Part shown: positions 23,677 to 42,642 of the stretch, piece after piece
Layout: each line of letters begins with the position of its first letter
How positions within the stretch are numbered: the first letter of the stretch is position 1
Source: Stutzerimonas stutzeri
GTDB lineage: Bacteria > Pseudomonadota > Gammaproteobacteria > Pseudomonadales > Pseudomonadaceae
NCBI RefSeq assembly: GCF_024451105.1
Contig: NZ_JANGEY010000003.1
Location: forward strand, 62,001 to 126,000
DNA: 64,000 nt
Direction: 5' to 3'
The notes under the pieces: model-generated
Told to the model about the DNA's origin: nothing
The model's input: only the letters and a program-made list of their open reading frames with translations
The model's database searches: none
Position numbers and translations under genes: made by a program

Positions 23677-23693
23677 CAGCAGGAGACACAGCG

Positions 23694-25094
23694 ATGAAGA
23701 CGACTCTTTTCCGGGCCAGCCTGCTGAGTGCAGGCATCCTCTGCGCATTCAGCCAGACCGCCGCGGCCAAGGTTTCCCCCGAAGAGGCCGCGCGCCTGGG
23801 CAAGGACCTGACCTGCTCCGGCGCCGAGAAGGCCGGCAACGCCGACGGCAGCATTCCGGCGTTCTCCGGCAAGTGGCTGGGCGCCCCCGACCACATCAAG
23901 CACGAGGGGACCGGCAAGTTCTGGGAAAACCCCTACGCCAACGAAAAGCCGCTGTTCACCATCACCGCACAGAACATGGAGCAGCACGCCGACAAGCTCT
24001 CCGACGGCCTCAAGGCGCTGTTCAGGAAGTACCCGGAGACCTTCAAGATCCCGGTGTATACCAGCCACCGCGACTTCCGCTTCCCCGACTGGGTCTGCGA
24101 CGCCTTCAGGAAGAACGCCACCACCGCCGAACTGGTCGACGACGGCCTCGGCCTCAAGGCGGTGACCGGCTCCCAGCCGTTCCCGATCCCGCAGACCGGC
24201 CTCGAGCTGCTCTGGAACATCAACAACACCGGCCCGCAGCCGCACAAGACCGAGCTGACCACCCAGGACGTGGTGGTCTACCCGGATGGCAACCTGGCCT
24301 GGGGCAAGATGGAGAACAAGTTCCTCGGCGTGCGCTCCGAGCCGGGCGTGATGCGCGACACCACCGACTTCACCCCGCCCTACGGCGGCATCCAGTCGCT
24401 GACCATCCAGAAGACCCACCTGCCGCTGCGCGACAAGGGCACGGTGTATTCGACGCGGGAGACCTTCAACTACAAGACCCTGCCGCGCGACGTGTACATC
24501 TACAACCCGGGTACCCGCCGCGTGCGCCAGGCGCCGTCGTTCGGCTTCGACATGCCGCAGGGCGCCGGTGGCTTCCGCACCGTCGACGAACACCACATGT
24601 TCAACGGCTCGCCGGAGCGCTACGACTGGAAGATCGTCGGCAAACGCGAGATGTACATCCCCTGGAACGCCTTCAGCACCAACCAGGCCGAGGTGAAGAT
24701 CGCCGACCTGATCAAGCACAAGGGCCACGTCAACACCGAGCCCATGCGCTTCGAGCTGCAACGCGTCTGGGTGCTGGAAGCGACCCTCAAGCCCGGCTTC
24801 CGCCACCAGTACGCCAAGCGCGTGTTCTACATCCAGGAAGACACCTGGGGCGCGGCGCTGTCCGACCAGTACGACGGCCGCGGCCAGCTGTGGCGTACCG
24901 TGCTGGGCAACTGGATGTGGGCCTACGAGTCGCAGACGCCCTACTGGGGCATCGCCGCGCACCATGACCTGATCTCCGGCGCCTACCTGGTGGACAACAT
25001 CGCCAACGAGACCGGCGCGCCGATCCTGGAAACCAAGGAAAACTGGACGCCGGCCATGTTCAGCGCCGAAGCGGCGGCCCGCTGGGGGCGTTGA
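23694..25094 (+). CDS. DUF1329 envelope protein (copy 1)
   Basis: A 466-residue secreted protein (signal peptide ending near QTAAA-KVS). Typical DUF1329 features are the N-terminal AGNADGSIPAFSGKW block, RRVRQAPSFGFDMP and NGSPERYDWK. The fold is expected to resemble LolA/LolB-like lipid carriers, but that is inference. It is paired with the DUF1302 barrel upstream, and a terminator follows. A paralogue is at 61307 with the same motifs. Confidence 0.8.
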   Translation: MKTTLFRASLLSAGILCAFSQTAAAKVSPEEAARLGKDLTCSGAEKAGNADGSIPAFSGKWLGAPDHIKHEGTGKFWENPYANEKPLFTITAQNMEQHADKLSDGLKALFRKYPETFKIPVYTSHRDFRFPDWVCDAFRKNATTAELVDDGLGLKAVTGSQPFPIPQTGLELLWNINNTGPQPHKTELTTQDVVVYPDGNLAWGKMENKFLGVRSEPGVMRDTTDFTPPYGGIQSLTIQKTHLPLRDKGTVYSTRETFNYKTLPRDVYIYNPGTRRVRQAPSFGFDMPQGAGGFRTVDEHHMFNGSPERYDWKIVGKREMYIPWNAFSTNQAEVKIADLIKHKGHVNTEPMRFELQRVWVLEATLKPGFRHQYAKRVFYIQEDTWGAALSDQYDGRGQLWRTVLGNWMWAYESQTPYWGIAAHHDLISGAYLVDNIANETGAPILETKENWTPAMFSAEAAARWGR

Positions 25095-25337: not shown

Positions 25338-25907
25338 TTGAACAACCCCCTGGAACTGGAATCCGTCATCGCGAGCACGCGGGAGATCCTTGCCCAGTTG
25401 CTGGTTCTCGACATCGAGGATATCGAGGCCGACAGCAGCATCGTCGAGGATCTCTCCGCCGATTCCCTGGACATCGTCGATCTGAGCTTTCAGCTCGGCA
25501 GACGCTACGGCTGCGTCCTGCCCAAGACCAGCGTACTGGACCACGCCGCTGCGGTATGCGGCGATCTGCAGGCATTCGTCGACGCCGGCGGCCTGACCCC
25601 GGCCGGCAAGGCGCTGCTCGAGGGGAGCCTGAACGCCTATGCCGATGGCCAGTTGCGCCCGGGCATGAAGCCGGCCGATGTGTTCGCCGCCACGACGGTC
25701 CGCAACTGGGCTGCCCAGTGTCGCAACCTCTTCGATCACCTGCCGGAATCCTGCCCCCAGTGCGGCGGCAAGCATGCCAGCCTCAGCCCGCAGAACCTGG
25801 TGGTATGCAGCGCCTGCAGCGCACGCCTGAGTCCTGCCGACGGCGATCAGGTTTCCCGGCTGCTGGTCGAGAGATTCGTCGCGGCCAACCTGCAAGAACG
25901 CGTCTAG
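25338..25907 (+). CDS. Acyl carrier protein with C-terminal zinc ribbon
   Basis: A 189-residue carrier. The N-terminal 85 residues form an acyl carrier domain with the phosphopantetheine serine in ADSLDIVD (S43). After a linker of about 50 residues come four cysteines, C139-x2-C142 and C157-x2-C160, a zinc-ribbon pattern. Ordinary carriers are 75-90 residues. The start is TTG at 25338, supported by AAGGAG exactly 7 bp upstream, and there is no in-frame alternative with a ribosome site. It is the first gene of the MerR-controlled operon and most likely carries the growing chain for the downstream ketosynthases. The zinc ribbon could dock a partner enzyme; that is inference. Confidence 0.8.
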   Translation: MNNPLELESVIASTREILAQLLVLDIEDIEADSSIVEDLSADSLDIVDLSFQLGRRYGCVLPKTSVLDHAAAVCGDLQAFVDAGGLTPAGKALLEGSLNAYADGQLRPGMKPADVFAATTVRNWAAQCRNLFDHLPESCPQCGGKHASLSPQNLVVCSACSARLSPADGDQVSRLLVERFVAANLQERV

Positions 25908-25915
25908 GGGCCGCC

Positions 25916-27190
25916 ATGCGGGCGCGCGAAGTCTGCGTCACCGGCTACGGTCTGGTGGCTCCCACGGTGCTGGACGGCGACAGTCTGTTTCGGCGGATCT
26001 GCGAGAATCGCTCCTGCGTTCGCAGCCACCCATTGTTCGAGGAGCTCGGTTTTCCGAACACGGCGGCCGGCTATCTCGATGACGAGCAGTGGCTGCACAT
26101 GTTCGACGCCTATGACGGCGGTCCGGTCGTACCCCCGCGGCAGTGCGTGCTGGCGACCTATGTCGCCAGACAGGCCCTGGGCCACGCCGGGCTGACGGCG
26201 AATGCGTTCGGGGGGAGCCGCAGCGGCCTTTTCCTCGGCGCCAACAAGTACTGCGCCAACGTCCAGGATCTCGACCGCCTCGGCATGTGCCTGAACGATG
26301 ACAGCCTGGACCTCGACCGTCTCCTCGGGCAGCAGCCGGACACCGAGCCGGTGTTCTCGCGGCGGGTCGACCAGCAGACCTTCCAGCTGGCCGCAGAGCT
26401 GGGGATCAGCGACCACATCTCCACCCATTCCGACGCCTGCGCAGCCGGAACGGTGGCCATCGGCAGCGCCTATCGGGCGATCGAGCGTGGCGAGATCGAC
26501 CTTGCACTGTGCGGCGCCGTCGAGCTGATGGCCAACGAGCTGCCCTATTACATGTTCGGCAGCCTCGGCGCGCTGTGCCAGCAGAGCGAGCTGCCACCCG
26601 AGCGGCAGAGTCGACCGTTCATGCGCGACCGCAGCGGTTTCGTGCTCAGCGAGGGGGCTGCCTTTCTGGTCCTGGAGTCGCGCGAGCACGCCGAACGCCG
26701 CGGGGCGCACGTGCTCGGCCGGGTGCTGGGTTATGCCAACCACTGCGAGGCGGAGAAGATGACGGCCAGCAGCAAGGATGGCAGCAAGTACGCGCGCTGC
26801 ATGGAGGAGGCGATAGAGGATGCCGGTCTGCTGCCGCATGCCGTGCAGCACGTGAATACCCATGGCACCTCGACTCAGGTCAATGACAGCTGCGAGGCCC
26901 TGGCTCTCAAGCGGGTCTTTGGCGAGCAGCTGGATGCCATCACCCTCACCGCCAACAAGTCGGCCGTCGGCCACTCGCTGGCCGGCAGCGGCGCCATCGA
27001 GGCGGTGCTTTCGCTGATCAGCCTGCGCGATGGCGTGCTCCTGCCGACGCTGAACTACTGCCCGGATGGAGCCCAGTTTCCCGAGCTGAAATTCCTGACC
27101 GAGCCCAGGCGCCAGTCGGTGCATGTGGTGCTGTCCAACTCCTTCGGCTTCGGCGGCATCAACAGTTCCATCGTGCTGGGGAGGGCTTGA
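25916..27190 (+). CDS. Beta-ketoacyl synthase, catalytically intact (KS1)
   Basis: A 424-residue FabF-type condensing enzyme. All catalytic residues are in place: Cys in SDACAAG (C175), His in VNTHGTST (H316), Lys and His in NKSAVGH (K348, H353). The C-terminal SNSFGFGGINSS signature is intact. It would elongate an acyl chain on the carrier protein with malonyl-ACP. An unusual N-terminal insertion (about residues 45-75 and 120-155) sets it apart from housekeeping FabF. It lies 8 bp after the carrier gene and 2 bp before its degenerate partner KS2. Confidence 0.9.
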   Translation: MRAREVCVTGYGLVAPTVLDGDSLFRRICENRSCVRSHPLFEELGFPNTAAGYLDDEQWLHMFDAYDGGPVVPPRQCVLATYVARQALGHAGLTANAFGGSRSGLFLGANKYCANVQDLDRLGMCLNDDSLDLDRLLGQQPDTEPVFSRRVDQQTFQLAAELGISDHISTHSDACAAGTVAIGSAYRAIERGEIDLALCGAVELMANELPYYMFGSLGALCQQSELPPERQSRPFMRDRSGFVLSEGAAFLVLESREHAERRGAHVLGRVLGYANHCEAEKMTASSKDGSKYARCMEEAIEDAGLLPHAVQHVNTHGTSTQVNDSCEALALKRVFGEQLDAITLTANKSAVGHSLAGSGAIEAVLSLISLRDGVLLPTLNYCPDGAQFPELKFLTEPRRQSVHVVLSNSFGFGGINSSIVLGRA

Positions 27191-27192
27191 GC

Positions 27193-28254
27193 ATGACCCT
27201 GTTGCAGGGAAGGCCGGTGTACCTGGTGGCGGCCTCCGTACTCAATGCCGCCGGCAGCGAGGCCGGCGATCTCCACGGCGCGGTGCCACAGCCGCTGCCT
27301 CTGCCGTTCGCCGCGGAGCGAACGGCGCATGCCGTGGCGGCTCCGCGGCTGCCGGCGGATCTGTTCGACCGCAAGATCCAGCGCAGCGTCGAGCCGCAGG
27401 GGCTGCGCCTGCTGCACTGCGCCGCGCGACTGGCGCCGGCTCTGCGCGAGTTGCGACTGCCGGCGCAGCGGGTAGGGCTGACGGCGGCGATACCCGAGGT
27501 TGACGCGCCCAGTCCCTGCTGGGATGCGGTCGAAGCCATCGAGCGCGAGCCGGACAGGCTTCTCGCGCAGCTGCTGGCCAACACCCCGCCGCTACACGCG
27601 CTGACCCTGCTCAACAGCTCGGTCATGGCCTATGTCGCCGAGGCGCTGGACTGCCGGGGCGTCATGGCGGGCTATTGCGCGCAGGTCGGTGCCGGCTTCG
27701 ATGCGCTGATCGAGGCGGTTGCGGAAGTCGCCGAGGGGCGGGCCGATGCGGCGCTGTCGGTCAGTTGCAGCCCGAACCTGACGCCGGCCCTGTTCCTGCG
27801 CGACGAGCCGGGCCAGGACGTGCTGTACGGGGAGGGGGCCGCGGCGCTGCTGCTGGCTGCCCAGCCACCGCTCGAAGGCCTCGTGGTGCGGGTGGCCGGT
27901 TACGGCCGTGGCTTCAGTGCCGACCCGCAGCGCCGCCCGGCAGTGCTGCAGCAGGCCGTGCGCCAGGCGCTGCAGGCGGAGCGCCTGACGCCGCGCGACA
28001 TCGACTGGCTGGGCGGCAGCGTCCCCGATCTTGCCGCCAGCGAGCCGTTCGCTGCCTGTGCCGTCCTGCGCGATACCCGGGAGGTAACCGGCGAACTGGG
28101 CGCCAGCGGCCTTGCTACCGAGATCGCTGCCCTGATCGTCGACCCGCGTCATGAGCGCGAGCCCCGCCTGCGCCATGTGCTGCTGCCGAGTGTCAGCCGG
28201 GCAGGGCACTGCGACGCCATGCTGCTGGCAATCACCTGGAAGGAGAAGGCATGA
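27193..28254 (+). CDS. Degenerate ketosynthase-like protein, chain-length-factor-like (KS2)
   Basis: A 353-residue protein with the thiolase/ketosynthase fold but without working catalytic residues. The region around the expected nucleophile reads GYCAQVGAG (C162), offset from the normal ACAAG pattern, and neither the THGTxT nor the NKxxxGH motif exists. It is shorter than KS1 by about 70 residues, mostly in the C-terminal half. By analogy with the KS/CLF pairs of type II polyketide synthases it may be the inactive half of a heterodimer with KS1. The ATG follows GGAGGG at 7 bp, and the end overlaps KS3 by 4 bp. Confidence 0.7.
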   Translation: MTLLQGRPVYLVAASVLNAAGSEAGDLHGAVPQPLPLPFAAERTAHAVAAPRLPADLFDRKIQRSVEPQGLRLLHCAARLAPALRELRLPAQRVGLTAAIPEVDAPSPCWDAVEAIEREPDRLLAQLLANTPPLHALTLLNSSVMAYVAEALDCRGVMAGYCAQVGAGFDALIEAVAEVAEGRADAALSVSCSPNLTPALFLRDEPGQDVLYGEGAAALLLAAQPPLEGLVVRVAGYGRGFSADPQRRPAVLQQAVRQALQAERLTPRDIDWLGGSVPDLAASEPFAACAVLRDTREVTGELGASGLATEIAALIVDPRHEREPRLRHVLLPSVSRAGHCDAMLLAITWKEKA

Positions 28255-29549
28255 ACGGAGCAAGGGTGGTGATCACCGGGATGGGGGCGGTGACCGGCTT
28301 CGGTTTCCAATGGCAGGACATGTGGCAGCAGATGCTGCTCGGCAGGCACTGCGTAGCGCCCTGGCAACCGGAGGAAATCGAGGACGGCGGCTTTCCGGTG
28401 CGGTTCGCCGCGGCCGTCGACGTCACGCGCCTGTCGTCCGGACTGCAGGGGCATCCGGCGTGGGACATGCCGATGGAGAAACGCAGTCGCCTTGGCTGGA
28501 TCGCCGCCACCCAGGCGGTCGCCGACAGCGGCCTGGCCGTCAGCGAGCTCAGCCGTGCCGCGGTGCTGACGGCATCCGGCGCGCCCCAGCACATGCTCGC
28601 CGACATGCGTCTGGCGCTGCCCGCCGATGGCGGCCAGGGGGCGGACTGGTGCCACCTGATGCAGCGTTCTGCGCAGGTCCACACGGATGGCTCGCTGCGA
28701 CAGGCCAACGACCGGCTGTCGCGGCTGATCGCCGCGGACTTCTCCTGCGAAGGCCCGGTGCTCAACGTCAGCAGCGCCTGCGCGGGCGCTGCGCAGGCGA
28801 TCGGCAATGCCTTCCGGATGATCCGGCGCGGCGAGGTGGATGTCGCCGTGGCCGGCGGGGCCGATTCGGTACTCAATCTCGACACCATGAGCGCGCTCTA
28901 CCTGCTGGGTGCCGTCAGCAGCGAGCAGCGCTGGGGCAGCGAGCTGTGTCGGCCGTTCGATCGCGACCGCAGCGGCCTGGTCGCCGGCGAAGGCGGTGGC
29001 TTCGTGGTCCTCGAGCGGCTGGAGCGGGCGCTGGCCCGTGGCGCCACGCCCTATGCCGAGGTGCTCGGCTATGGCAGCAGTCTGGATGGCTACAAGGTCA
29101 CCGCTCCGGATCCGCAGGGGCGCGGCGCCGCCCTGGCCATGCGCGCGGCTCTGGAGGATGCCGGTGTGCGGCCGCGGCAGGTCGATCTGGTCAATGCCCA
29201 CGGGACGTCCACGCCGCTCAACGATGTGGCGGAAACCCTGGCGATCAAGAGCGTGTTCGCCGAGGAGGAGCATTACCGCCAGCTGGCTGTTTGCGCCAAC
29301 AAGTCGCAGTTCGGCCATCTGATCGCCGCGGCGGGGGCACCCGAGTTCATCGTCACGGCGCTTTCCTGCCGCGACGATCGCATTCCGCCGACCCTCAACC
29401 TGCAGCACCCGGACCCCGACTGCGATCTGGACTACTGCGCGCAGCGGGCAGTCAGCCGCCCGGTGCAGGTGGCGCTCAGCAACTCGTTCGGTTTCGGCGG
29501 CCTCAACGCGTCGCTGGTGCTGGGCAAATACCGGGAGAGCCGAGTATGA
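28251..29549 (+). CDS. Beta-ketoacyl synthase, catalytically intact (KS3)
   Basis: A 432-residue FabF-type condensing enzyme with C177 (SSACAGA), H317 (NAHGTST), K351 and H356 (NKSQFGH) and the C-terminal SNSFGFGGLNAS signature. It is clearly divergent from KS1, so it is not a recent duplicate. ATGA overlaps at both ends (with KS2 and KS4) imply coupled translation and fixed stoichiometry. It probably performs a second set of elongations, or initiation, with KS4 as inactive partner. Confidence 0.9.
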   Translation: MNGARVVITGMGAVTGFGFQWQDMWQQMLLGRHCVAPWQPEEIEDGGFPVRFAAAVDVTRLSSGLQGHPAWDMPMEKRSRLGWIAATQAVADSGLAVSELSRAAVLTASGAPQHMLADMRLALPADGGQGADWCHLMQRSAQVHTDGSLRQANDRLSRLIAADFSCEGPVLNVSSACAGAAQAIGNAFRMIRRGEVDVAVAGGADSVLNLDTMSALYLLGAVSSEQRWGSELCRPFDRDRSGLVAGEGGGFVVLERLERALARGATPYAEVLGYGSSLDGYKVTAPDPQGRGAALAMRAALEDAGVRPRQVDLVNAHGTSTPLNDVAETLAIKSVFAEEEHYRQLAVCANKSQFGHLIAAAGAPEFIVTALSCRDDRIPPTLNLQHPDPDCDLDYCAQRAVSRPVQVALSNSFGFGGLNASLVLGKYRESRV

Positions 29550-30748
29550 AGCACGTCGATCAGCGGATCGCCATCAGCGGTGCCGGTTGCGTGCTGGCCA
29601 CCGGCTGGGGCGTCGAACCCTTCTGGGCGGCCGCGCGGGCCGGGCGCAGCGGCATCGGACCACTGCGTGCCAGGCACTTCCACAGTCGGCGGGTGGTCGC
29701 CTTCGGCCACGTCGCCGAGGACGTCCAGCAGCGCTGCCGTCAGGAGGTGCCGCGCAACCTGCACCGCTACTGCACGCCGGCGCTGGCCTGGGGCGTCAGT
29801 GCGGTCGGCCAGGCGCTCGCGGAGGCCGGGATCGATCCGCAGCAGGGGCGGCTGCGCCTGGGACTCTATGGCTGCCAGGGGGGCTACACCCATCCCTCGC
29901 TCGATGCCTACGCCGAGTTGCTGCGCGATTGCTCCAGCGAGCTCGGCCTGGACAAGACCGGGCTCAGCCGGCGGGTGCTGCAGGAGCGCGCCCTGGACCC
30001 CTTCCTGGTGCTGAAGAGCCTCAGCAACGGTCTGCTCGGGGTGGTCAGCCTGACCCACCGTCTGGAGTGCGAGGGCAGCGCCTTCATGCAGGGTGTCGCC
30101 GGCAACCAGGCGGCCTTGCGCGAGGCCTGCGCCGCGCTGCGCAGCGGCCGTATCGATGCCGCCATCGTGGTCGGCTCGGGCAGCGAACTCGACGCGCTGG
30201 CGCTCGCCGCGCTGGTTCGCGCCGGAGTCATTTCCGCCAATGGCACCGAGGCCTTCCTGGCGTTCGACGAACGCGGCCGGGGCGGCATTGCCGGTGAAGG
30301 CGCCGCGGCACTGGTGCTGCAGCGCTGCGCGGATCTGCCGACCGCGGCGCACGTGTGCCTGGTCGGTCAGACGGCGCACGCCAACCTCGACGCCCTGCAG
30401 CTGCCGGCCGAGTCGACCGACCTGCTGGTCTGCACTGCCAGCGGCGAGCCGGAGCAGGACCGGCGGCTGAGTGTCCGCCTGGGCCGGATCCCGGCCGCGC
30501 ATGTCGGCGCAGCGCAGCCGCTTACCGGAATCCTCAGCGCAGCACCCAGCCTGGTCGATCTGATTCTGGCTCGCAGCGCCATGCAGGCCGGCTACGCGCC
30601 CCCGCTCGCCGGGCTGAGGCATCCGGTCGACGACCGGCTGCCCTTCGTCGTCGGCAGCGGACGCGAGGTGCCGATCCGCCGGGCCACAGTGGTCGGCCGC
30701 GACGACAACGGCTTCAGCGCCTGCTACCGGCTCGAGCTGGCCAGCTAG
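29546..30748 (+). CDS. Degenerate ketosynthase-like protein, chain-length-factor-like (KS4)
   Basis: A 400-residue ketosynthase-fold protein. The nucleophile region reads SAFMQGVAGNQAAL, so the cysteine is lost, and the THGTxT and NKxxxGH histidines are absent. The N-terminal half (ISGAGCVLATGWGVEPFW) and the central GEGAAALVLQR loop still align with ketosynthases. It follows intact KS3 with a 4-bp overlap, repeating the intact-plus-degenerate order of KS1/KS2. A hairpin occupies the 68-bp gap after it. Confidence 0.75.
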   Translation: MKHVDQRIAISGAGCVLATGWGVEPFWAAARAGRSGIGPLRARHFHSRRVVAFGHVAEDVQQRCRQEVPRNLHRYCTPALAWGVSAVGQALAEAGIDPQQGRLRLGLYGCQGGYTHPSLDAYAELLRDCSSELGLDKTGLSRRVLQERALDPFLVLKSLSNGLLGVVSLTHRLECEGSAFMQGVAGNQAALREACAALRSGRIDAAIVVGSGSELDALALAALVRAGVISANGTEAFLAFDERGRGGIAGEGAAALVLQRCADLPTAAHVCLVGQTAHANLDALQLPAESTDLLVCTASGEPEQDRRLSVRLGRIPAAHVGAAQPLTGILSAAPSLVDLILARSAMQAGYAPPLAGLRHPVDDRLPFVVGSGREVPIRRATVVGRDDNGFSACYRLELAS

Positions 30749-30758
30749 TACCCGCACG

Positions 30759-30788
30759 CAGCGCGCGGCCACTGCCGGCTGCGCGCTG
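30759..30788 (+). promoter_or_regulatory. Intra-operon hairpin
   Basis: CAGCGCGC (30759-30766) pairs with GCGCGCTG (30781-30788), then TCTCTT. This is one of two gaps longer than 20 bp in the operon (the other is 36472-36540). It could attenuate transcription or protect the 3' end of the ketosynthase message. Confidence 0.45.
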
Positions 30789-30816
30789 TCTCTTCAGTGA
30801 AAGGATGTGAGTCCCA

Positions 30817-33687
30817 ATGGATTACCGCGACTATGTAAGGCCCCGCTACGTCGAACTGATGCAGGCGCTGGGTCTGGAGTGCCAGTTCCACCGTGCCAGT
30901 GGCAGCAAGCTGTTCCGCCGTGACGCCGCGGGAGCCGAGGTGGCCGTGACCGACTTCCTGGGCGGCTATGGTGCCGCGCTGTTCGGCCATAACGACCCCG
31001 AACTGGTCGAGCTGCTCTGCGCTCTGCTGCGCGAGCAGGCGCCCTTCAACGCACAGATGTCGGTGCGCAGGGCCGCCGGCGAGCTGGGGCGGCGGCTGAG
31101 CGAGGCGCTCGGCCAGGAGCTGGGCTGCGCCGAGCACTTCGTGTCGACCTTCTCCAACAGCGGCGCCGAAGCGGTGGAGATCGCCATCAAGCACGCCGAG
31201 TTCAGCCGCCAGAAGCGTTTGCAGGCCGCCTTCGACCAGCGGGACTTCGTCCTGGCCGGTCTTTCCGGCGGCCAGCAGGCGTACGTCGAGTTCGATGTGG
31301 GCGAACTCGAGCTGCCGGCCGGCCTGCTGCCGGCGCACCTGACCACGGTGACCCTGCGCCAGCTGGCCGAGGCCGTGCGCCAGCACAACCTGGCCCAGCT
31401 GCATGCCGCTCCGGTGTTCGTCGCCATGCGGCGCAGCTTCCACGGCAAGCTGGTCAGCAGTGTGCAGCTCACCTACGGGCGGCAATACCGCCAGCCTTTC
31501 GCCCGCTTCGGGCTGAATGTCGATTTCGTCGACCCCGAGCAGCCCCAGCAGCTCGAGGAGCTGCGCCAGCGGCACCGCCGCGACTGGCTGAGTCTGGAGC
31601 TCGCCGGCGCGCGCCCGGTGCTGCGGCGGGAGCCGTGCAGCAGCATCGCCGCGATACTGCTCGAGCCGATCCAGGGCGAGGGCGGCATCCACGAAATTCC
31701 CGCAGAAGCCTGTCTGGCGCTGCGCCGGCTGTGCAACGAACTGGGTTGTCCGCTGATCGTCGACGAGGTGCAGTCGGGCTTCGGCCGCACCGGCACGCTG
31801 CTGGCCAGCAGCCAGCTGCGCCTGCTCGGCGACTACTACTGCCTGTCCAAGGCGCTGGGTGGTGGCCTGACCAAGATCGCCGCCACGCTGATCCGTGCCA
31901 GCCACTACGAGGCCGACTTCAGCTACATCCACAGCTCGACCTTCGCCGAGGACGACCTGTCCTGTCGCGTGGCTCTGCAGTCCCTGCAGCGCCTGCAGGC
32001 GGACGGCGGGGCGATGCTCGAGGACATCCGCAGCAAGGGCGAGTATCTCAAGGCTTCGCTGTGCGAGCTCAAGGACTACTACCCGGACGTGATCGCCGAC
32101 GTGCGCGGCCGCGGCCTGCTGCTCGGCATCGAGCTGCACGACCTGAGCGACAGCAGCTCGCTGGTGCAGGCCTCGGCGCAGTACAACGATGCGCTCGGCT
32201 ATCTGATCGCCGGCTACCTGCTGCAGCACGAGCACCTGCGCGTGGCCCCGTCGGGCAGCAACGCCAACGTGATCCGCCTGGAGCCGCCGGCGTGCATCAG
32301 TCATGCCGAGATCGACGGCCTGCTCGCGGCGCTGCAGCGGGTCTGCGAGATGCTCCGCCGGCGCGATGCACTGCCGCTGGCCGCGGCGGTGTGCGCCGAC
32401 CTGCTGCCCGAAGTGCCGCCACGCGAGGAGAGCTTCGCCGGGGAGAGCCCGCGCCCAAAGCCTGAGCAGGGCACCCCGGTGGTAGCCAGGGTGGCCTTCA
32501 TCAACCATCTGATCGACACCGGCATGCTCGGCGACGTCGACCCATCGCTCGCCGTGCTCGACGCGGAGCAGAAGCGCGCCTTCGTCGAACGCACGGCTCC
32601 CGAGCGCAGGGCCGCGCCCATAGGCCCGGTGACCATTCGCTCGCGGCTGGGCACGGCGGTGGAGTTCACCCTCTATCCGCTGTGCATGGACTCCAGCGCA
32701 ATGGCCGGATACATGGCCAGCGGCGACCTGCAGCCGATCCGCGAGGAGATCGCCGCACGCATCCGCGATGCCCGCGCCGACGGCTGCCGCATCGCCGGAC
32801 TGGGGATGTACACCTCGATCGTCACCAACAACTGCCAGTCCCTGCAGATCCCGGATGTCGCGCTGACCTCCGGCAACGCCCTGACCATCGGCATGGGGCT
32901 GGAGGCCATCGAGCAGGGCTGCGCCCGCCAGGGCATCGACCTGGCCAGGGAGACCGCCGCAGTGGTCGGCGCGGCCGGCAACATCGCCTCGACCTACGCC
33001 TCGCTGCTGTCGATGCAGGTCGATCGTCTGCTGCTGATCGGCAGCGGCCGCGAGGGCTCGCTGCGCCGCCTGGAGAAGACTGCCGAGCTGATCTACATGG
33101 ATGCCGCACGCTCGATTCGTGCCGGCACGAGCGAGCACGACCGGCTGGCCAGGCGCCTGCTGCAGCTGGAGGGGGTCGAGGCGTTGCTGCAGCTGTATGG
33201 CGATGCTCCGGATCTCGGCCGCCGGCTGTTCCGTTTCGTGGCCGAGCGCCTCGGGGACGAGGCGTTCATCGTCGTCGGCAACGATCTCGACAGCCTGCGC
33301 CAGGCGCGCATCGTGCTCTGCGCAGCCAATGCGCCGCAGGCCTTCCTGCAGGCCGGGCATTTCGCCGAGAACGGCGTGGTCTGCGATATCGCCGTGCCGC
33401 TCAACGTCGACCAGGCGGTGGCGGCGCAGCGTCCCGACCTGCTCTACATGCACGGCGGCATCGTGCAGACCCCGTTCGGCGACGGCCTGGCGGAAAACGT
33501 GCGCGCCTATCTCGGCGAGGGACAGCTCTACGCCTGCATGGCCGAGTCGGTGCTGATGGGGCTGGCGGGGATGAGCCGGCACTACTCCTACGGCGATATC
33601 AGCCGCGAGCAGGTACAGCAGATCCGCGCCATCGCCGCGACCCACGGCTTCGGGCTGGCCCGGATCAAGACGGACAACTCCCTGTAA
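30817..33687 (+). CDS. Class III aminotransferase fused to an acyl-ACP-reductase-like domain
   Basis: A 956-residue two-domain protein. Residues 1 to about 480 are a PLP-dependent class III (omega) aminotransferase: QGEGGIHEIPAE, the PLP-binding Asp in VDEVQSGFGRTG (D316) and the Schiff-base Lys in LSKALGGG (K345). Residues about 555-956 match cyanobacterial long-chain acyl-ACP reductase (AAR): GLGMYTSIV, the NADPH loop GAAGNIA (718-724), LYMHGGIVQTP, and QLYACMAE, whose C907 aligns with the thioester-forming cysteine of AAR. Predicted activity: reductive release of acyl-ACP as an aldehyde, then transamination to a primary amine. PigE of prodigiosin synthesis uses the same logic; as I recall, its domains run in the opposite order. 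Nine bases separate it from the fabG-like gene. Confidence 0.85.
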   Translation: MDYRDYVRPRYVELMQALGLECQFHRASGSKLFRRDAAGAEVAVTDFLGGYGAALFGHNDPELVELLCALLREQAPFNAQMSVRRAAGELGRRLSEALGQELGCAEHFVSTFSNSGAEAVEIAIKHAEFSRQKRLQAAFDQRDFVLAGLSGGQQAYVEFDVGELELPAGLLPAHLTTVTLRQLAEAVRQHNLAQLHAAPVFVAMRRSFHGKLVSSVQLTYGRQYRQPFARFGLNVDFVDPEQPQQLEELRQRHRRDWLSLELAGARPVLRREPCSSIAAILLEPIQGEGGIHEIPAEACLALRRLCNELGCPLIVDEVQSGFGRTGTLLASSQLRLLGDYYCLSKALGGGLTKIAATLIRASHYEADFSYIHSSTFAEDDLSCRVALQSLQRLQADGGAMLEDIRSKGEYLKASLCELKDYYPDVIADVRGRGLLLGIELHDLSDSSSLVQASAQYNDALGYLIAGYLLQHEHLRVAPSGSNANVIRLEPPACISHAEIDGLLAALQRVCEMLRRRDALPLAAAVCADLLPEVPPREESFAGESPRPKPEQGTPVVARVAFINHLIDTGMLGDVDPSLAVLDAEQKRAFVERTAPERRAAPIGPVTIRSRLGTAVEFTLYPLCMDSSAMAGYMASGDLQPIREEIAARIRDARADGCRIAGLGMYTSIVTNNCQSLQIPDVALTSGNALTIGMGLEAIEQGCARQGIDLARETAAVVGAAGNIASTYASLLSMQVDRLLLIGSGREGSLRRLEKTAELIYMDAARSIRAGTSEHDRLARRLLQLEGVEALLQLYGDAPDLGRRLFRFVAERLGDEAFIVVGNDLDSLRQARIVLCAANAPQAFLQAGHFAENGVVCDIAVPLNVDQAVAAQRPDLLYMHGGIVQTPFGDGLAENVRAYLGEGQLYACMAESVLMGLAGMSRHYSYGDISREQVQQIRAIAATHGFGLARIKTDNSL

Positions 33688-33696
33688 GGAGACGAC

Positions 33697-34434
33697 ATGC
33701 ACAACAAGACTGCGGTGGTCACCGGCGGCAGCCGGGGCATCGGCAGGGCGATCGTCCGGGTGCTGGCAGGAGCCGGCTACCGGATTGCCTTCAGCTACGT
33801 GCGCGACGAGGCAGCGGCGATGGCCCTGCGCGAAGAGATCGAGGCGATGGGGCGACCGTGCCTGGCCTTGCGCTGCGACGTCGGCGAGAGCGACAGCATC
33901 GCCGCCTTCTTCGCGCGAGTGGAGGAGGAATACCAGCGCATCGACCTGCTGGTGAACAACGCCGGCATCACCCGCGACGGCCTGCTGGCGGTGCTGCCCG
34001 AAGAGGACATCGTCGGTGTCATCCAGACCAACCTGGTCGGCACGCTGCTGTGCTGCCAGCAGGCGCTGCCGGGAATGCTGCGCCGGCGCAGCGGCAGCAT
34101 CGTCAACCTCAGTTCGGTGGCCGCCCAGCGCCCGGGCAAGGGACAGAGCAACTATGCCGCCGCCAAGGGCGGCGTCGAGGCGCTGACCCGCGCCCTGGCC
34201 GTCGAGCTGGCGCCGCGCAACATCCGCGTCAACGCCATCGCTCCCGGCATCGTGCGCACCGAGATGAGCGAGGCGCTGATCGGCAGCATGGCGGAAGCAA
34301 TCCGCGAGCGCCTGCTGATCAAGCGCTACGCCGAGCCCGAGGAAATCGCCGAGGCGGTGCTGTTCGTGGCCGAGCGCGCACTCTACATGACCGGGGAGGT
34401 CCTGCCGGTCAACGGCGGGCTGAAAATGCCATGA
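33697..34434 (+). CDS. 3-oxoacyl-ACP reductase, FabG-like
   Basis: A 245-residue SDR of FabG type: TGGSRGIGRA cofactor loop, NNAGIT, catalytic Ser in LSSVAA, Tyr/Lys in YAAAKGG, and the closing LPVNGGLKMP. It would reduce the beta-keto group after each condensation. No dehydratase or enoyl reductase of FabZ/FabA/FabI type is in the operon, so either the product keeps hydroxyls or the housekeeping enzymes complete the cycle. Overlaps the next gene by 4 bp. Confidence 0.88.
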   Translation: MHNKTAVVTGGSRGIGRAIVRVLAGAGYRIAFSYVRDEAAAMALREEIEAMGRPCLALRCDVGESDSIAAFFARVEEEYQRIDLLVNNAGITRDGLLAVLPEEDIVGVIQTNLVGTLLCCQQALPGMLRRRSGSIVNLSSVAAQRPGKGQSNYAAAKGGVEALTRALAVELAPRNIRVNAIAPGIVRTEMSEALIGSMAEAIRERLLIKRYAEPEEIAEAVLFVAERALYMTGEVLPVNGGLKMP

Positions 34435-35195
34435 GCAAGACTCGTACGATTCTCGTCACCGGCGCGGCGAAAGGCATCGGCAGGGCCGTCGCGGAGTCCT
34501 TTGCAGGGGCGGGCGGCCATCGCCTGATCCTGCTCGATCGCGACCTGAGCGAACTGGAGGGCTGGACGGCCGGCCATCCGGCACGGGAGAGCATCGAGTC
34601 CCACTTCGCCGACATCGCCGATCTGCCCGGTCTGCAGCGGCTGTTCGAGGACCTGGCCCGTCGCCACGGGCAGATCGACGTGCTGGTGAACAGCGCCGGC
34701 ATCTGCGACGAGAACGAGCCCGAGGACCTGGACACCTGGCACAGGGTGATCGCAGTGAACCTCAGCGGCACCTTCTACGTGACCGCGCTGTGCCTGCCGC
34801 TGATCCCCCGGCATGGGCGGATCGTCAACATGGCCTCGATCCTCGGCCGCGCCGGCAAGGTGCGCAACACCGCCTATTGCGCCTCGAAGCACGGCATCGT
34901 CGGGATGACCAAGGCGCTGGCGCTCGATCTGGCCGCGCAGCAGATCACGGTGAACGCGATCCTGCCGGCCTGGGTCGACACGCCGATGCTGCGCCACGAA
35001 CTGGCGGTGCAGGCCGGCATGGCCGGCCTGACTCCCGAGCAGATCCAGCGCAATGCCAGGCGCAAGCTGCCCTTGCGCCGCTTCATCCAGAGCGAGGAGG
35101 TGGCTGCGCTGGTGCGTTATCTGGCCAGCCCCGAGGCGGCGGGTGTCACCGCCCAGAGCCTGGTGGTCGATGGCGGCGCCGGATTGGGGATGTAG
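34431..35195 (+). CDS. SDR-family reductase
   Basis: A 254-residue short-chain dehydrogenase with TGAAKGIG, VNSAGI, MASILG and the YCASK catalytic pair. It is distinct from the FabG-like protein: an extended segment (HELAVQAGMAGLTPEQIQ) forms a lid typical of hydroxyacid or small-alcohol SDRs such as 3-hydroxybutyrate dehydrogenase-like enzymes. It probably tailors the chain or intermediate. Translation is coupled to fabG-like by ATGA, and the next gene starts 1 bp after its stop. Confidence 0.8.
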   Translation: MSKTRTILVTGAAKGIGRAVAESFAGAGGHRLILLDRDLSELEGWTAGHPARESIESHFADIADLPGLQRLFEDLARRHGQIDVLVNSAGICDENEPEDLDTWHRVIAVNLSGTFYVTALCLPLIPRHGRIVNMASILGRAGKVRNTAYCASKHGIVGMTKALALDLAAQQITVNAILPAWVDTPMLRHELAVQAGMAGLTPEQIQRNARRKLPLRRFIQSEEVAALVRYLASPEAAGVTAQSLVVDGGAGLGM

Positions 35196-35196
35196 C

Positions 35197-36471
35197 GTGT
35201 CGAGAGCCAATTACTGCCGCGGTCTGCTGGCCGTGCTGGCCGCATTGTCGTGCCAGGCCACCGCGGATTCGCTCTACCGGGAGGCCGAAGTGGGCCTGGC
35301 CAGCGCGTTGCGCCTGCATGGCGACGACCGGGTCACGCAGAAGGAGGTCTACTTCAAGGCCAGCCTCGAGGACAGCTGGGACAGCGGCTACTACAAGGCC
35401 AAGGGGCGGATTCGCTACGACGCCCGCTACGACGGCAACAATCCCTATTCGGCCCAGGCCCGCGACGAGTACCGCCTGGATGCCGACTGGCGCCACCTGT
35501 ACTGGGGGCATTACCTCGGCGCAGGCGAGCTGACCGTCGGCTGGCAGCAGGTGGTATGGGGGCGCGCCGACGAGCTGCGCGTCCTCGACCAGGTCAACCC
35601 GCTGGACTACCGCGAGGGGGTGACCGCGCTGCTCGAGGAAAGTCGCATCGCGCTGCCCATGGTGCGTTACATCCGGCCGCTCGGCGACTGGGAGCTGGAG
35701 GCGCTGTGGATCACCGGCTTCGAGAAGAACCGGCCTCCCGCGGCTGGCAGCGAATTCGATTCGCCGCTGTTCGCCAAACCGCCTGCCGATACCTTCCTGG
35801 TCGACTCGACGCCCGACTACGACGGTGCCGACGGCTTCGCCTACGGGCTGAGCGGCAACGGCCGGCTCGGCGACGTGGACGTCAGCGCGGTGCTGCTCAA
35901 TGCCCGCCAGCAGGACCCGGTGTACGCCGTCGAGGGCCTGGCGGCGGATGGGCGGATACGCCTGGAGCGGCAGTTTCCCCGCTACACCATGGTCGGTACC
36001 GGGCTCGCGCTCGATGCCGGGCACAGCATCGTGGTACGCAGCGAGGTCGCCTACTTCGACAACTGGCGCCTGACCAACCCGACGCGCGCCTTCGGCAGCG
36101 ACGAAAGCCCGCTGCTCAAGGCACTGCTCGGCGTCGACTACCTGGTCCGCGACTGGATGATCTCCGCGCAGTGGCAGGAACAGCAGGTTCTCGACTGGCG
36201 CGCGGGCATGCTGCTGGAGCGCCGCGAGCACCTGTTCACCCTCTCGGCGGAGGGCTCGCATGCCCAGGACCGTCTGAAGAGCCGGCTGGTGGCCGCCTTC
36301 AGTCCACCCGCCGGGGACGATGCGCTGCTCCAGGCGATTCTCACCTACAAGCCGGTCGACTGGCTGAAGCTCGGTCTCGAGGTCGACCTGTTCTTCGGTC
36401 GCCAGGGCGGCACGTTCGGCAGCTACGACCAGCGCGACCAGTTGCGCTTCTCGGCCGGATACCTGTTCTGA
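35197..36471 (+). CDS. DUF1302-like outer-membrane barrel of the biosynthetic operon
   Basis: A 424-residue secreted protein (GTG start behind GGGGA; signal peptide ending near QATA-DS). Beta-strand-rich sequence, the VGWQQVVWGRADELRVLDQVNPLDYRE-type region (WGRAD-(E)-LRVLD) and the C-terminal FSAGYLF match the DUF1302 family, though it is 100 residues shorter than the steroid-arm copies. Likely an outer-membrane channel or acceptor for the operon product. The following gap of 69 bp holds a ribosome site for the LolA-like gene and no clear promoter. Confidence 0.7.
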   Translation: MSRANYCRGLLAVLAALSCQATADSLYREAEVGLASALRLHGDDRVTQKEVYFKASLEDSWDSGYYKAKGRIRYDARYDGNNPYSAQARDEYRLDADWRHLYWGHYLGAGELTVGWQQVVWGRADELRVLDQVNPLDYREGVTALLEESRIALPMVRYIRPLGDWELEALWITGFEKNRPPAAGSEFDSPLFAKPPADTFLVDSTPDYDGADGFAYGLSGNGRLGDVDVSAVLLNARQQDPVYAVEGLAADGRIRLERQFPRYTMVGTGLALDAGHSIVVRSEVAYFDNWRLTNPTRAFGSDESPLLKALLGVDYLVRDWMISAQWQEQQVLDWRAGMLLERREHLFTLSAEGSHAQDRLKSRLVAAFSPPAGDDALLQAILTYKPVDWLKLGLEVDLFFGRQGGTFGSYDQRDQLRFSAGYLF

Positions 36472-36540
36472 CCCACCCCTGCTGCCCGCCGCCTGCGGGG
36501 CACGGCGGTGCGGCATTTCATGAATTTCGAGGAGTTACCC

Positions 36541-37374
36541 ATGTTGCCGATACTCAAGAGACTCACCCTGGCCGCTCTCGTCACCGCCAGCGCGGTTGCT
36601 CAGGCCGAGCCGCCCAGCGCCGACGAGATCGTCCGTCAGGCCCGCGAGCGGGACGACGGCCACAGCTTCATGTCGGAGGTGTCGCTGATCCTGCACGACA
36701 AGAAGGGCAATACCCGGGTGCGGACCTTCACCTACCTGCAGAAGGACTACCCCGAAGGCGACAGGTTCTCCATGTTCTTCACCTCGCCCAACGACGTGCG
36801 CGATGTCGCCTTCCATATCGAGAACCCGCAGGAGGTGCTCGGCAAGGAGGACAGCCAGTGGATGTACCTGCCCGTCAGTCGCCAGACCCGGCGGATATCC
36901 ACCACCGACAAGCGCGGTTCGTTCATGGGCAGCGAGTACTCCTACGCCGACCTGGACAAGATCCGGGTGAACGACTATCGCCAGACCCTGCTCGGCGAGG
37001 AGCAGATCCTGGGGCGCGACTGCCATGTGATCGAGCGCGAGCCGGCTTCCCCGCAGGTGCTCACCAAGACCGGCTACAACAAGCTCAGGGTGTGGATCGA
37101 CAAGCAGAACCACCTGGTGATGCGCCAGGACTTCTTCGACGTGAAGGGCGTGCTGATCAAGCAGATGCGCACCCTCGAGGTGGCCAAGGTCGATGGCATC
37201 GACAGCATCATGCTCAGCGAGACCGAGCACTTCATCGACGGAACCCGCTCGGAGATGCGCTTCGACCGGCTGCAGTACAACGTCGAACTGGATGATCGGC
37301 TGTTCACCCAGGGTGCGATCCGTCGCGGGCTGAAGTCCGGGGACCTGCCCGGGTTCGTCTCTCCCTCCCAGTAA
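36541..37374 (+). CDS. LolA-like outer-membrane lipoprotein-sorting family protein
   Basis: A 277-residue periplasmic protein (signal peptide ending AVAQA-EPP). It matches the LolA_like family: DEIVRQARERDDG start, SLILHDKKGNTRVR, QWMYLPVSRQTRRIS, and GSEYSYADLD. Family members have a half-barrel that holds a lipid and often stand next to MMPL transporters, as here. It probably ferries the operon product, or a lipid carrying it, across the periplasm. The ATG follows GAGGAG. Confidence 0.82.
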   Translation: MLPILKRLTLAALVTASAVAQAEPPSADEIVRQARERDDGHSFMSEVSLILHDKKGNTRVRTFTYLQKDYPEGDRFSMFFTSPNDVRDVAFHIENPQEVLGKEDSQWMYLPVSRQTRRISTTDKRGSFMGSEYSYADLDKIRVNDYRQTLLGEEQILGRDCHVIEREPASPQVLTKTGYNKLRVWIDKQNHLVMRQDFFDVKGVLIKQMRTLEVAKVDGIDSIMLSETEHFIDGTRSEMRFDRLQYNVELDDRLFTQGAIRRGLKSGDLPGFVSPSQ

Positions 37375-37392
37375 GCGGCGGTTCGGATAATC

Positions 37393-40002
37393 ATGGAAAG
37401 ATACCTGGACTTCGTCGAACGCCATGCGAAGGGGATCATCGTCCTGCTGCTGGCGATCACGGCCTACTTCACCTACGTGCTCGGCGCGCTGACCTCGGAC
37501 ACCAACCCCTACCTGCTCAAGGAGTCGCATCCGGCGCGCAAGACGATCATCGACCTGCAGGGCGAGTTCACCGGTACCTTCGACTCGGTGATGCTGGCGC
37601 TGCACAATCCCGACGGGGTGTTCAACCGGGACACCCTCAACGCCCTGCATTCGCTGTCCCAGACGGCGCGCAGGGTGGTGCTCAGCAACGAGGAGGACGC
37701 CCTCGAGCTGCAGCGCATAGCCCAGTTGCATGCCGAGGATGCGCGGGCCCGCGAGCTGGTCGACGCCATGCTGATCGACGGCCTGGCGCAGAACGACTAC
37801 CAGACGGCCAAGGCTCTGCGTGAGCACGCCCGCAGCCAGAACTGGAAGCCACGGGAGCAGCATTTCATCGACTTCCTGGCCGAGCGGGTCAACCCGATCC
37901 GCGAGATGGCCTCGATGGGCGACTTCGAGAATATCCTGCTGACCGACGACGGCGAGCTGCTGATCCACAAGACCCTCAGGGCGTTCGACATGGATCCCTC
38001 CCGGGTCGAGTCGGAGATCATGGGCAACGAGCTGATGGTCGATGGCGTGGTTTCGCGCGACAAGACCGTGGCCCTGCTGGTAGCCGAACTCGGAACCCGC
38101 CAGGACGACGCCGAGGCCCAGTTGCGGGCCTACCGGATCTTCCGCGACATGGTCGCCGACTATCAGGCGCAGCACCCGGAGTTCAAGGACGAGGTGTTCA
38201 TCGCCGGCATGCCGATCTTCATCGCCGCCCAGCAGGAGATCATCGACCATGATCTGGCATTGCTCTTTCCGATCGTGTTCGTGCTGATCAGCACCCTGCT
38301 GGTGTTGTTCTTCAGGAAGCCGCTGGGGCTGCTGCTGCCGTTGCTGAACATCCTTTTCTGCACCATCTGGACGCTCGGGCTGATGGCCCTGCTCGAGGTG
38401 CCGGTCGACCTGCTGACCAGCGTTCTGCCGGTGTTCCTGTTCACCATCTGCTGTTCCGATGCCATCCACGTGATGGCCGAGTACTACGAGCAGAAGTACG
38501 CCGGGCAGAGCAACCGCGAGGCCAACCGGGCCACCATGCGCCTGATGATGATGCCGGTTGTGCTGACCACGGTGACGACCATCGCCGCCTTCCTGATCTC
38601 CACCGCCACCAACATCGTCAGCATCCGCAACTTCGGCATCTTCATGTCGGTCGGCCTGACGGCGGCCCTGGTCATATCGCTGCTGCTGATTCCGGCCTGG
38701 ATCGCCGTGTGGGGCAAGGACGGCATGCCGGAGCGGCGGGGCGGTCAGGACTCGTTGCTGTCGCGACTGCTGGTCGCCGGCTGTGCCTGGATGATCGAGC
38801 GGCGCAGGGCCATGCTCTGCGCGGTCCTGCCCCTGCTGGCCACGATGGCGGTGCTGACCTTCTCGGTCGCCATCGAGGACTCCGGCATCGCCTACTTCAA
38901 GGAGGGCAGTCCGGTACGCGTTTCCGACGAGTTCATCAACCGCAGCCATGTCGCCGGTACCGCGCCGGGGTGGATCGCCATCGACAGCAAGACCCCCAGG
39001 GGCGTGCTCGATACCGAGGTGGTGCAGTTCATCGACCGCCTCGATCGTTTCCTGCGCGAGCAGCCGGAGGTGAGTTACGGCTATTCGCTGGCGACCTACA
39101 TCAAGCGAATGAACCTGGTGCTCAACGACATGGACCCCGCCTATCTGCGGGTGCCCGAGGCGCGCGAGACGGTCAGCGTGGTGGACGAGGAGGGGCGTCG
39201 CGAGACCTTCGAGGTCGATGGCAATGCGCTGATCGACCAGCACGTGATGCTGTTCGAGAATGGCGGCGGTTCGGACCTGACCAATGTTCTCAACGCGGAC
39301 TATTCCAAGGCGGTCACTCTGTACACCATGACCTCCTCGGTGGCCAGCGACTACCGCAGCCTGCTGGCGCGTCTGGACGCCTGGCTGGCGGTGAACAAGC
39401 CGGCCCATCTGGAGATCACCCATGCCGGCACACCGACGATCTGGACCGGGGTGCTGGATGAGATCACCCGGGGGCAGTTGCTCAGCTTCACCCTGGCGGC
39501 GCTGGTGGTGACCCTGATGATGATGTTCTCGCTGCGCTCGCTGCGCCTGGGGCTGCTCGGCCTGCTCACCCTGCTGGCCACCTCGGCGAGCCTGTACGGC
39601 GCCATGTTCCTGCTGGACATCGAACTGAACATCGGCACCGCACTGGTCACCTACCTGGTGGTCGGGGTCGTGGATTATGCAGTGCACCTGCTGTCGCGTA
39701 TCCGGCTGTTCGTGCAGCAGGGCGTCGATATCGATAGCGCCATCCTGCGTTCCATGCACAGTGTCGGGCGTTCCACGGTGGTCAACGTGGTGATTTTCTC
39801 GGTCGGCTTCCTGGCTCTGCTGTTTTCCGACTTCAAGCCGGTTGTCGATCTGGGCGCCCTGGTGGCGCTGGCGCTGCTCGTCAGTGGCGTGATGACCATT
39901 CTGGTCATCACGCTGACTGCCCCGTGGTTCTTCGCACCGATCGCCGGGGGTGCGGCGTCGGGTTCCATGGCGCATGAGCCGGGTGGCGTGGTGCCCGCCT
40001 AG
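37393..40002 (+). CDS. RND/MMPL-family exporter of the biosynthetic operon
   Basis: An 869-residue MMPL transporter with two duplicated halves: first helix about 13-32, a periplasmic loop to about 285, a helix bundle 290-440, a second loop, and a second bundle about 700-855. The VLPVFLFTICCSDAIHVMAEYYE core and the second-half VVGVVDYAVHLLSR core carry the intramembrane charged residues expected for proton coupling. It belongs to a different branch from the two YCF48-linked MMPL proteins, being closer to hopanoid/lipid exporters. It is the last gene of the 14.7-kb operon and converges on the MerR gene, whose stop is 68 bp away. Confidence 0.85.
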   Translation: MERYLDFVERHAKGIIVLLLAITAYFTYVLGALTSDTNPYLLKESHPARKTIIDLQGEFTGTFDSVMLALHNPDGVFNRDTLNALHSLSQTARRVVLSNEEDALELQRIAQLHAEDARARELVDAMLIDGLAQNDYQTAKALREHARSQNWKPREQHFIDFLAERVNPIREMASMGDFENILLTDDGELLIHKTLRAFDMDPSRVESEIMGNELMVDGVVSRDKTVALLVAELGTRQDDAEAQLRAYRIFRDMVADYQAQHPEFKDEVFIAGMPIFIAAQQEIIDHDLALLFPIVFVLISTLLVLFFRKPLGLLLPLLNILFCTIWTLGLMALLEVPVDLLTSVLPVFLFTICCSDAIHVMAEYYEQKYAGQSNREANRATMRLMMMPVVLTTVTTIAAFLISTATNIVSIRNFGIFMSVGLTAALVISLLLIPAWIAVWGKDGMPERRGGQDSLLSRLLVAGCAWMIERRRAMLCAVLPLLATMAVLTFSVAIEDSGIAYFKEGSPVRVSDEFINRSHVAGTAPGWIAIDSKTPRGVLDTEVVQFIDRLDRFLREQPEVSYGYSLATYIKRMNLVLNDMDPAYLRVPEARETVSVVDEEGRRETFEVDGNALIDQHVMLFENGGGSDLTNVLNADYSKAVTLYTMTSSVASDYRSLLARLDAWLAVNKPAHLEITHAGTPTIWTGVLDEITRGQLLSFTLAALVVTLMMMFSLRSLRLGLLGLLTLLATSASLYGAMFLLDIELNIGTALVTYLVVGVVDYAVHLLSRIRLFVQQGVDIDSAILRSMHSVGRSTVVNVVIFSVGFLALLFSDFKPVVDLGALVALALLVSGVMTILVITLTAPWFFAPIAGGAASGSMAHEPGGVVPA

Positions 40003-40069: not shown

Positions 40070-40489
40070 TCAGGCTCCCAAGCTCTGTGGATGCGCCGGT
40101 TTTTTTTCCGCCGGGCGCGAGGCACGCAGGAGGTGGCATTCCTCCCGGGCGTCCTGCAGATCCTTTTCGAAAGCCTGCAACCCGGCGTGCAACTGCTGGA
40201 GCATGTCTATCTGGGTCGTCAGTTCCTGTTTCTTCCGGGCGATCTCCTGCTGTGCCCGCTCCCAGGGAAAGTCGCGGCCGCCGTAGTCGGCGAGAATGCC
40301 CTGCAGCTCCTTGAGCTTGAATCCCAGCTGTTGGGCGCACTTGATGAAACGCAGGACCTCGACGTTTTCCTGATCGTAGACCCGATATTTCCCCTCGCGC
40401 GGCGCTTGGGGAAGCAGGCCTATCTTCTCGTAGTGGCGAATGCTCTTGACGGTCGTTCCCGATAGCTTGGCTGCTTTTCCTATGTACAT
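40070..40489 (-). CDS. MerR-family transcriptional regulator
   Basis: A 139-residue MerR regulator: winged helix-turn-helix at the N-terminus (YIGKAAKLSGTTVKSIRHYE, IGLLPQAPREGKYRVY), then a long coiled coil (about residues 78-120) and a short tail. The start at 40489 is chosen because GGAAG lies 8 bp upstream. Only C60 (IKCAQQLGF) and the cysteine in REECHLL are present, so it does not show the CueR- or SoxR-type metal/iron-sulfur ligand pattern and may sense a small molecule. It is divergent from the quinone reductase gene with a MerR-type promoter between them. The similar promoter at 25226 suggests it also switches the biosynthetic operon. Confidence 0.88.
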   Translation of the reverse strand: MYIGKAAKLSGTTVKSIRHYEKIGLLPQAPREGKYRVYDQENVEVLRFIKCAQQLGFKLKELQGILADYGGRDFPWERAQQEIARKKQELTTQIDMLQQLHAGLQAFEKDLQDAREECHLLRASRPAEKKPAHPQSLGA

Positions 40490-40649
40490 CCTGACAACTT
40501 CCATTTGTGTTGCGAACGCTGGGCGGTTGCCCGTGCAGGCGGGCATCTTCCGGGAATCGCAGGCGAGCTGTCGCGGGGCGATGGCAGTTCCGTCGAGCAG
40601 ATCACAGCCGGGAAGTCATGGGGAAGGGAGCCGGCGTCCCTGGCGGGGC

Positions 40650-41379: not shown

Positions 41380-41389
41380 CTCGGCACTC

Positions 41390-41806
41390 AGCGCAGCACG
41401 AATGCCTCCAGCTTCGGCGCGGCCATCTCATCCCTGAAGCGCTGCTGCGACCACGGCCAGGTGTTGGGGACGCCCTCGGCATCCAGGTACCAGCTGTTGC
41501 AGCCGGAGCCGAACACCGTCTTGCGCGCGGCGTCCTTGCGGGCCACGTCGTAGGCGTCCAGCACGTTCTGCGAGGCACTGACTTCCCGGCACCGACCGCT
41601 GCGCACCAGCTCGATCAGCTGGGCGATGTAGCCCCACTGCAGCTCGGCGATGTCGATCAGCGAGAAGTTGCCGGCCGGGCCGGTGGTGCCGTTGAGCATG
41701 AAGAAGTTGGGGAATTCGGGGATCGAGATCGCCAGGTAGGCGGTCGGCCCCTGGGCCCAGGCCTGCGCCAGGGTGTGGCCGTCGCGGCCGGTGATCTGCA
41801 TCGGGC
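41390..41806 (-). pseudogene. 3' fragment of a Baeyer-Villiger monooxygenase gene (partial duplicate)
   Basis: About 136 codons on the minus strand correspond almost residue for residue to the C-terminus of the intact monooxygenase at 44027-45496 (for example ITGRDGHTL, FSLIDIAELQWGY, SGCNSWYLDA). Homology begins at the stop codon and ends abruptly near 41806 after GTGATCTGCATCGGGC; the N-terminal two thirds, including both Rossmann motifs, are missing. The copies differ at scattered positions, so the duplication is not recent. It cannot be functional. Confidence 0.85.
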
Positions 41807-42527: not shown

Positions 42528-42642
42528 GAGCGATCATCACGAAATCGCACGCATCTGGCCGGTGGGCGGTTGATGCGTGGAGAGGGATCGTCCCGGAGCG
42601 GCCTTCCCGGATGAGTGCGTTGGCGCCAAAGCGGAAGTCAAA

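Follow-up and report, generated by a model that had tools for sequence, protein, structure and literature searches.

A very probable, divergent KecF, fusing an aminotransferase to an acyl-ACP reductase, in a complete koreenceine-type gene cluster of a Pseudomonas lineage

The koreenceine gene cluster, kecA–kecK, was described in Pseudomonas koreensis CI12 (PMC6498172) and is catalogued as MIBiG BGC0001987 (PMC11888242). Deletion of kecA–K abolishes koreenceines A–D (PMC6498172). Within the cluster, KecF is reported to have an N-terminal aminotransferase (TA) and a C-terminal domain common to cyanobacterial acyl-ACP reductases (AARs), and it is proposed to act first as a reductase and then as a transaminase, before the ring closes (PMC6498172). 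According to the same study, kec clusters form Pseudomonas, Streptomyces and Xenorhabdus clades, the latter two without kecIJK, and P. mandelii is named as a carrier.

Several other systems resemble KecF to varying degrees. For instance, PP_2782 (PpKTFusion) of P. putida KT2440 has been purified as an active transaminase, and its C910 was mapped to C294 of AAR (PMC10829540). PtTamH of Pseudoalteromonas tunicata converts C12-ACP to the aldehyde and then to the C12-amine in vitro, and free C12 aldehyde was detected when the PtTamA–PtTamH cascade was run without L-Glu (PMC9594044). PigE of Serratia (4PPM) belongs to the prodigiosin pathway and carries a class III TA and an AAR-like half in reverse order (PMC8341465). 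AAR of Synechococcus elongatus (6JZU/6JZY) is a stand-alone enzyme of alkane synthesis whose partner is ADO. Finally, Streptomyces nigrescens HEK616 has a nine-gene cluster, stm, with which it makes both streptoaminals and 5-alkyl-tetrahydroquinolines (PMC12187902, PMC11272600).

The gene examined here lies at 30817–33687 on the forward strand of the window, i.e., the whole 64,000-nucleotide stretch of DNA that was analyzed. It is an uninterrupted single frame of 956 codons for amino acids, with G+C contents of 0.72, 0.45 and 0.90 at the three codon positions. This is a coding-type pattern that fits a real gene in a window of 68% G+C. Sequence, profile and model evidence divide the product into an aminotransferase (residues ~1–525), a linker and an acyl-ACP reductase (~554–953). 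A first-pass annotation of the DNA had recognized this arrangement and implied that the fusion was new. The arrangement is borne out below, whereas the reading of the fusion as unprecedented was rejected, as KecF (PMC6498172), PP_2782 (PMC10829540) and PtTamH (PMC9594044) are already published, and the kind of enzyme is known.

The aminotransferase half is readily identified. Pfam Aminotran_3 covers residues 24–509 (E 3.5e-59), and a phmmer search against solved structures matched CrmG over residues 16–518 (E 6e-94). Aminotran_3 is the sole Pfam match to the fusion, leaving the reductase half unnamed, so that a look at Pfam alone would wrongly suggest an unknown domain. A profile search of the PDB identifies this C-terminal domain as AAR-type. 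The profile, built from residues ~554–956 and two homologues (three sequences), matches Synechococcus AAR structures 6jzq/6jzy and 6jzu at E 5e-21 to 1e-20 and PigE (4ppm) at E 9e-29. With respect to S. elongatus AAR, the fold, cofactor loop and catalytic Cys all correspond, at about 23% identity.

PigE had been described in the first-pass annotation as a protein with the opposite domain order and a reductase of a different family. The domain order is indeed opposite; the second half of the statement does not hold. In the phmmer search, PigE matches through its aminotransferase and also through two stretches of its N-terminal half that correspond to residues 637–946 here, in agreement with the profile result and with the AAR-like assignment of that half (PMC8341465). 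A PigE with an unrelated reductase was therefore rejected, since both of its halves are homologous to those of the window protein.

The catalytic residues of both domains are present as first annotated. K345, the PLP lysine, lies within GDYYCLSK; D316 within LIVDE; the glycine-rich cofactor loop GAAGNIA spans residues 718–724; and C907 lies within QLYACMAES. The reductase profile pairs the latter motif with QMFACFAEA of AAR, thereby equating C907 with the catalytic C294. In an alignment of 40 TA-AAR sequences, K345, D316, G718, G721, N722 and C907 are invariant, and the domain match and invariant residues together are far beyond chance. A local difference occurs in the loop after the second strand, where the kec clade and its Pseudoalteromonas relative, about 30% identical to the window protein, differ by two residues.

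An AlphaFold2 model of the fusion, built with 40 sequences, has a mean pLDDT of 90.5 and a pTM of 0.87, with lower confidence mainly near the linker (residues ~541–550) and at the C-terminus. CrmG ranked first in a Foldseek search, the ranked list of which was filled by aminotransferases; the AAR match was absent from that list and emerged only in a separate comparison with VIA-align 2. In the latter, CrmG aligned to residues 4–523 (Z 42.2, 506 residues, 1.9 A), and AAR with bound NADPH and stearyl group (6jzy) to residues 558–953 (Z 35.4, 325 residues, 2.7 A). The C-terminal 396 residues thus superpose on 6jzy, and C907 aligns with the catalytic Cys. The first-pass annotation had named a C907 placed away from the NADPH pocket as counting against its proposal; as far as fold and alignment show, this is not the case. 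The domain is accordingly predicted to have an AAR fold with its Cys at the junction of the acyl and NADPH sites. That the reductase domain is degenerate, leaving only the aminotransferase to work on an aldehyde made elsewhere, is very improbable: the cited literature holds in vitro reductase activity for the distant PtTamH only, and no such assay of a KecF was found there, but all 40 aligned homologues keep C907 and the cofactor loop unchanged, and the model shows the complete AAR fold at high confidence.

The fusion gene sits in a complete kecA–K-type cluster at 25338–40002, all genes of which are co-directional (forward strand). It is the sixth gene in the published order of acyl carrier protein (ACP), two ketosynthase (KS)–chain length factor (CLF) pairs, TA/AAR, two short-chain dehydrogenases/reductases (SDRs) and an export trio. 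The kecA-like ACP gene (25338–25907, 189 aa) is supported by Pfam PP-binding (E 5e-8), alignment and collinearity in related clusters. The C-terminal extension of this ACP ends in a CPxC...CxxC zinc-ribbon-like knuckle that is kept in Pseudomonas, Cellvibrio, Zoogloea, Lysobacter and Streptomyces and absent from Xenorhabdus; the predicted structure of PP_2777 has been remarked upon as unusual (PMC12490732).

Both ketosynthases keep the active-site Cys/His/His. The kecB-like one (25916–27190) has the N and C domains of Pfam ketoacyl-synt and the motifs SDACAAG, NTHGTST and NKSAVGH, while the kecD-like one (28251–29549) matches an NCBIfam fabF-like model (E 6e-106) and has SSACAGA, NAHGTST and NKSQFGH. 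Their partners are CLFs (KS-beta). In the kecC-like protein (27193–28254), which has no Pfam match at 1e-3 and was assigned by KS alignment and by its conserved position in related clusters, the active-site Cys is replaced; the kecE-like protein (29546–30748) is without this Cys and matches the ketoacyl-synt N domain only. Downstream of the fusion gene are a kecG-like FabG-type SDR, or ketoreductase (33697–34434; NCBIfam 3oxo_ACP_reduc, E 6e-76; Pfam adh_short_C2), and a kecH-like SDR (34431–35195; adh_short_C2, E 9e-52). The export trio follows, comprising a kecI-like DUF1302 outer-membrane-type protein (35197–36471, start approximate; E 2e-17), a kecJ-like LolA_like protein (36508–37374; E 1e-49) and a kecK-like exporter of the MMPL/RND family (37393–40002; Pfam MMPL, E 1e-28).

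Beyond the 11 published kec genes, a MerR-family regulator is encoded on the reverse strand at 40070–40546 (Pfam MerR_1, E 2e-17; synteny) and adjoins most Pseudomonas kec clusters among the related loci. Together with a Flavodoxin_2 NAD(P)H oxidoreductase at 40718–41302, it recurs beside many of these clusters, and the two possibly have a regulatory role for the kec cluster. Directly upstream, a run of MMPL exporter, DUF1302 and DUF1329 genes occupies 19373–25094. As upstream DUF1302 and DUF1329 genes recur among the related loci only in a near-identical one, this run is probably outside of the kec cluster. Further downstream, 300 nt from the 3′ end of a flavin monooxygenase gene are directly repeated (91% identical copies at 41388–41687 and 44027–44326), and the two copies enclose ~2.3 kb with an ORF at 42577–43710 that has atypical codon G+C and no Pfam match.

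When 84,980 species genomes were scanned, 75 loci emerged. About 24 of Pseudomonadaceae type, P. mandelii 6A1 among them, keep the eight-gene core in collinear order, as do Cellvibrio, Zoogloea, Lysobacter, 14 Streptomyces and 8 Xenorhabdus, although contig ends cut a few of the loci short. The DUF1302–LolA–MMPL trio is confined to Gram-negative loci and is absent from Streptomyces and Xenorhabdus, so the scan independently recovered the published pattern of clades and kecIJK (PMC6498172). KecF of P. koreensis CI12 (WP_077570921.1) was outside of the compared loci, and P. mandelii 6A1 served in its place. In a tree of 73 rows, the window protein forms a lineage of its own inside a 24-row Pseudomonas clade (SH-aLRT 100), with ~77% identity to the nearest row; over the AAR domain, its nearest relatives in other Pseudomonas species are about 74–80% identical. 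It thus shares domain order, kecA–K order, genus and proposed reaction with CI12 KecF and differs from it in representing a divergent Pseudomonas lineage. PP_2782 is likewise an orthologous TA-AAR fusion, from another strain, in the PP_2777–PP_2787 cluster.

The identity of cluster order with the published kecA–K, together with fold, residues and tree, identifies the gene as kecF of a koreenceine-type cluster with a probability of about 0.93. One different view is that the same KecF chemistry leads to another N-heterocycle, closer to streptoaminals or 5-alkyl-tetrahydroquinolines. It draws on the eight core genes, TA-AAR fusion included, being collinear with those of the HEK616 stm cluster at 31–55% identity. 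However, the window cluster is much nearer to Pseudomonas kec clusters (58–78% identical) and has an export trio of the kecIJK type, which is missing from Streptomyces. The stm cluster instead has an extra gene after the core, which appears thioesterase-like from a sequence motif, and its final rings differ; no such thioesterase is among the window cluster genes. Such a product is quite unlikely here.

The fusion might also be viewed as a tambjamine- or prodiginine-type enzyme whose amine product is condensed with a bipyrrole aldehyde. PtTamH does have the same order of N-terminal TA and C-terminal AAR-type thioester reductase (catalytic Cys, C887), and the PigE family profile (NF053554) matches the window protein with 285.7 bits. 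This score is far below the family cut-off of 850 bits, however, and the order of domains is reversed, so that the protein falls outside of the PigE family. PtTamH differs in being NADH-specific and in having an ANL-ACP fusion (TamA) as its partner in a tambjamine cluster. Genes at 25338–40002 are all assigned otherwise, to two KS/CLF pairs, SDRs, an exporter and the rest of the kec set, and include no ANL-ACP (TamA), no PigC/TamQ-type ligase and no bipyrrole gene. In addition, the window KecF is distant from Pseudoalteromonas TamH-like rows in the 73-row tree. Altogether, this function is extremely improbable.

TA-AAR fusions outside of kec clusters were found in ten other loci, with hosts among Spirochaetota, Desulfobacterales, Riflebacteria, a cyanobacterial MAG and other MAGs. 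All ten directly adjoin a ~850–870 aa PPDK_N plus PEP-utilizers protein, an architecture common to PEP synthases and the prodigiosin ligases PigC/RedH. Two of these neighbors were scanned (loci L075 and L084), and all scores were below the PEP synthase and PigC/RedH family cut-offs; the other genes around the fusion in L075 encode a PBP and a signal peptidase. The fusion and its neighbor may be a fatty-amine enzyme coupled to a ligase/kinase, a pairing that recurs across phyla. Two further loci, L085 (8252–15118; Pseudomonas indica) and L017 (genome G062), show another context, in which the genes after the TA-AAR fusion encode, in order, a fatty acid desaturase, a PF10118 metal-dependent hydrolase and another desaturase-like protein. 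Yet another AAR fusion architecture, found in several genomes of the same order (loci L008 and L010–L016), is a ~640–740 aa protein with an AAR-like C-terminal part and a different N-terminal half.

Returning to KecF, the following is the best-supported account of its reaction. The two KS/CLF pairs would extend an ACP-bound medium-chain acyl unit with malonyl units, and the SDRs would reduce keto groups. The chain would then move from the ACP onto C907 of the AAR domain, where NAD(P)H would reduce the thioester and yield an aldehyde. At K345 of the N-terminal PLP domain, the aldehyde would be transaminated to an amine, with L-glutamate as the probable donor. Closure of the amine on a keto group of the chain, via a spontaneous imine, would give a tetrahydropyridine alkaloid, and the DUF1302–LolA–MMPL trio would export it. 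Acyl transfer and reduction are demonstrated for PtTamH and AAR, and transamination for PP_2782 and PtTamH (PMC9594044, PMC10829540); domain content, catalytic residues, predicted fold and complete cluster order are observed for the window protein itself. By analogy with these relatives, the conversion of acyl-ACP to aldehyde to amine on one chain, as first suggested, is the most likely reaction. The product would be a koreenceine-type alkaloid, and the cofactor may be NADH or NADPH: PtTamH uses NADH only, while the loop after the second strand sets the kec clade apart from its Pseudoalteromonas relative by two residues.

The first-pass annotation had further suggested that the aldehyde is handed over without release. 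This is undemonstrated in the cited literature, where the PtTamA–PtTamH cascade gave free aldehyde in the absence of L-Glu (PMC9594044), and such a transfer is speculation. With ~77% identity to the nearest relative, product chain length or tailoring could differ. A combination of the two, in which this divergent copy makes a koreenceine-like alkaloid that differs in chain length or in the type of ring, and hands the unreleased aldehyde from one active site to the other, is unlikely.

Coupled acyl-ACP reduction and transamination in vitro is unreported for KecF in the cited literature, and a divergent KecF is now supplied. The locus adds one complete koreenceine-type cluster in a Pseudomonas lineage, rather than a new kind of enzyme.
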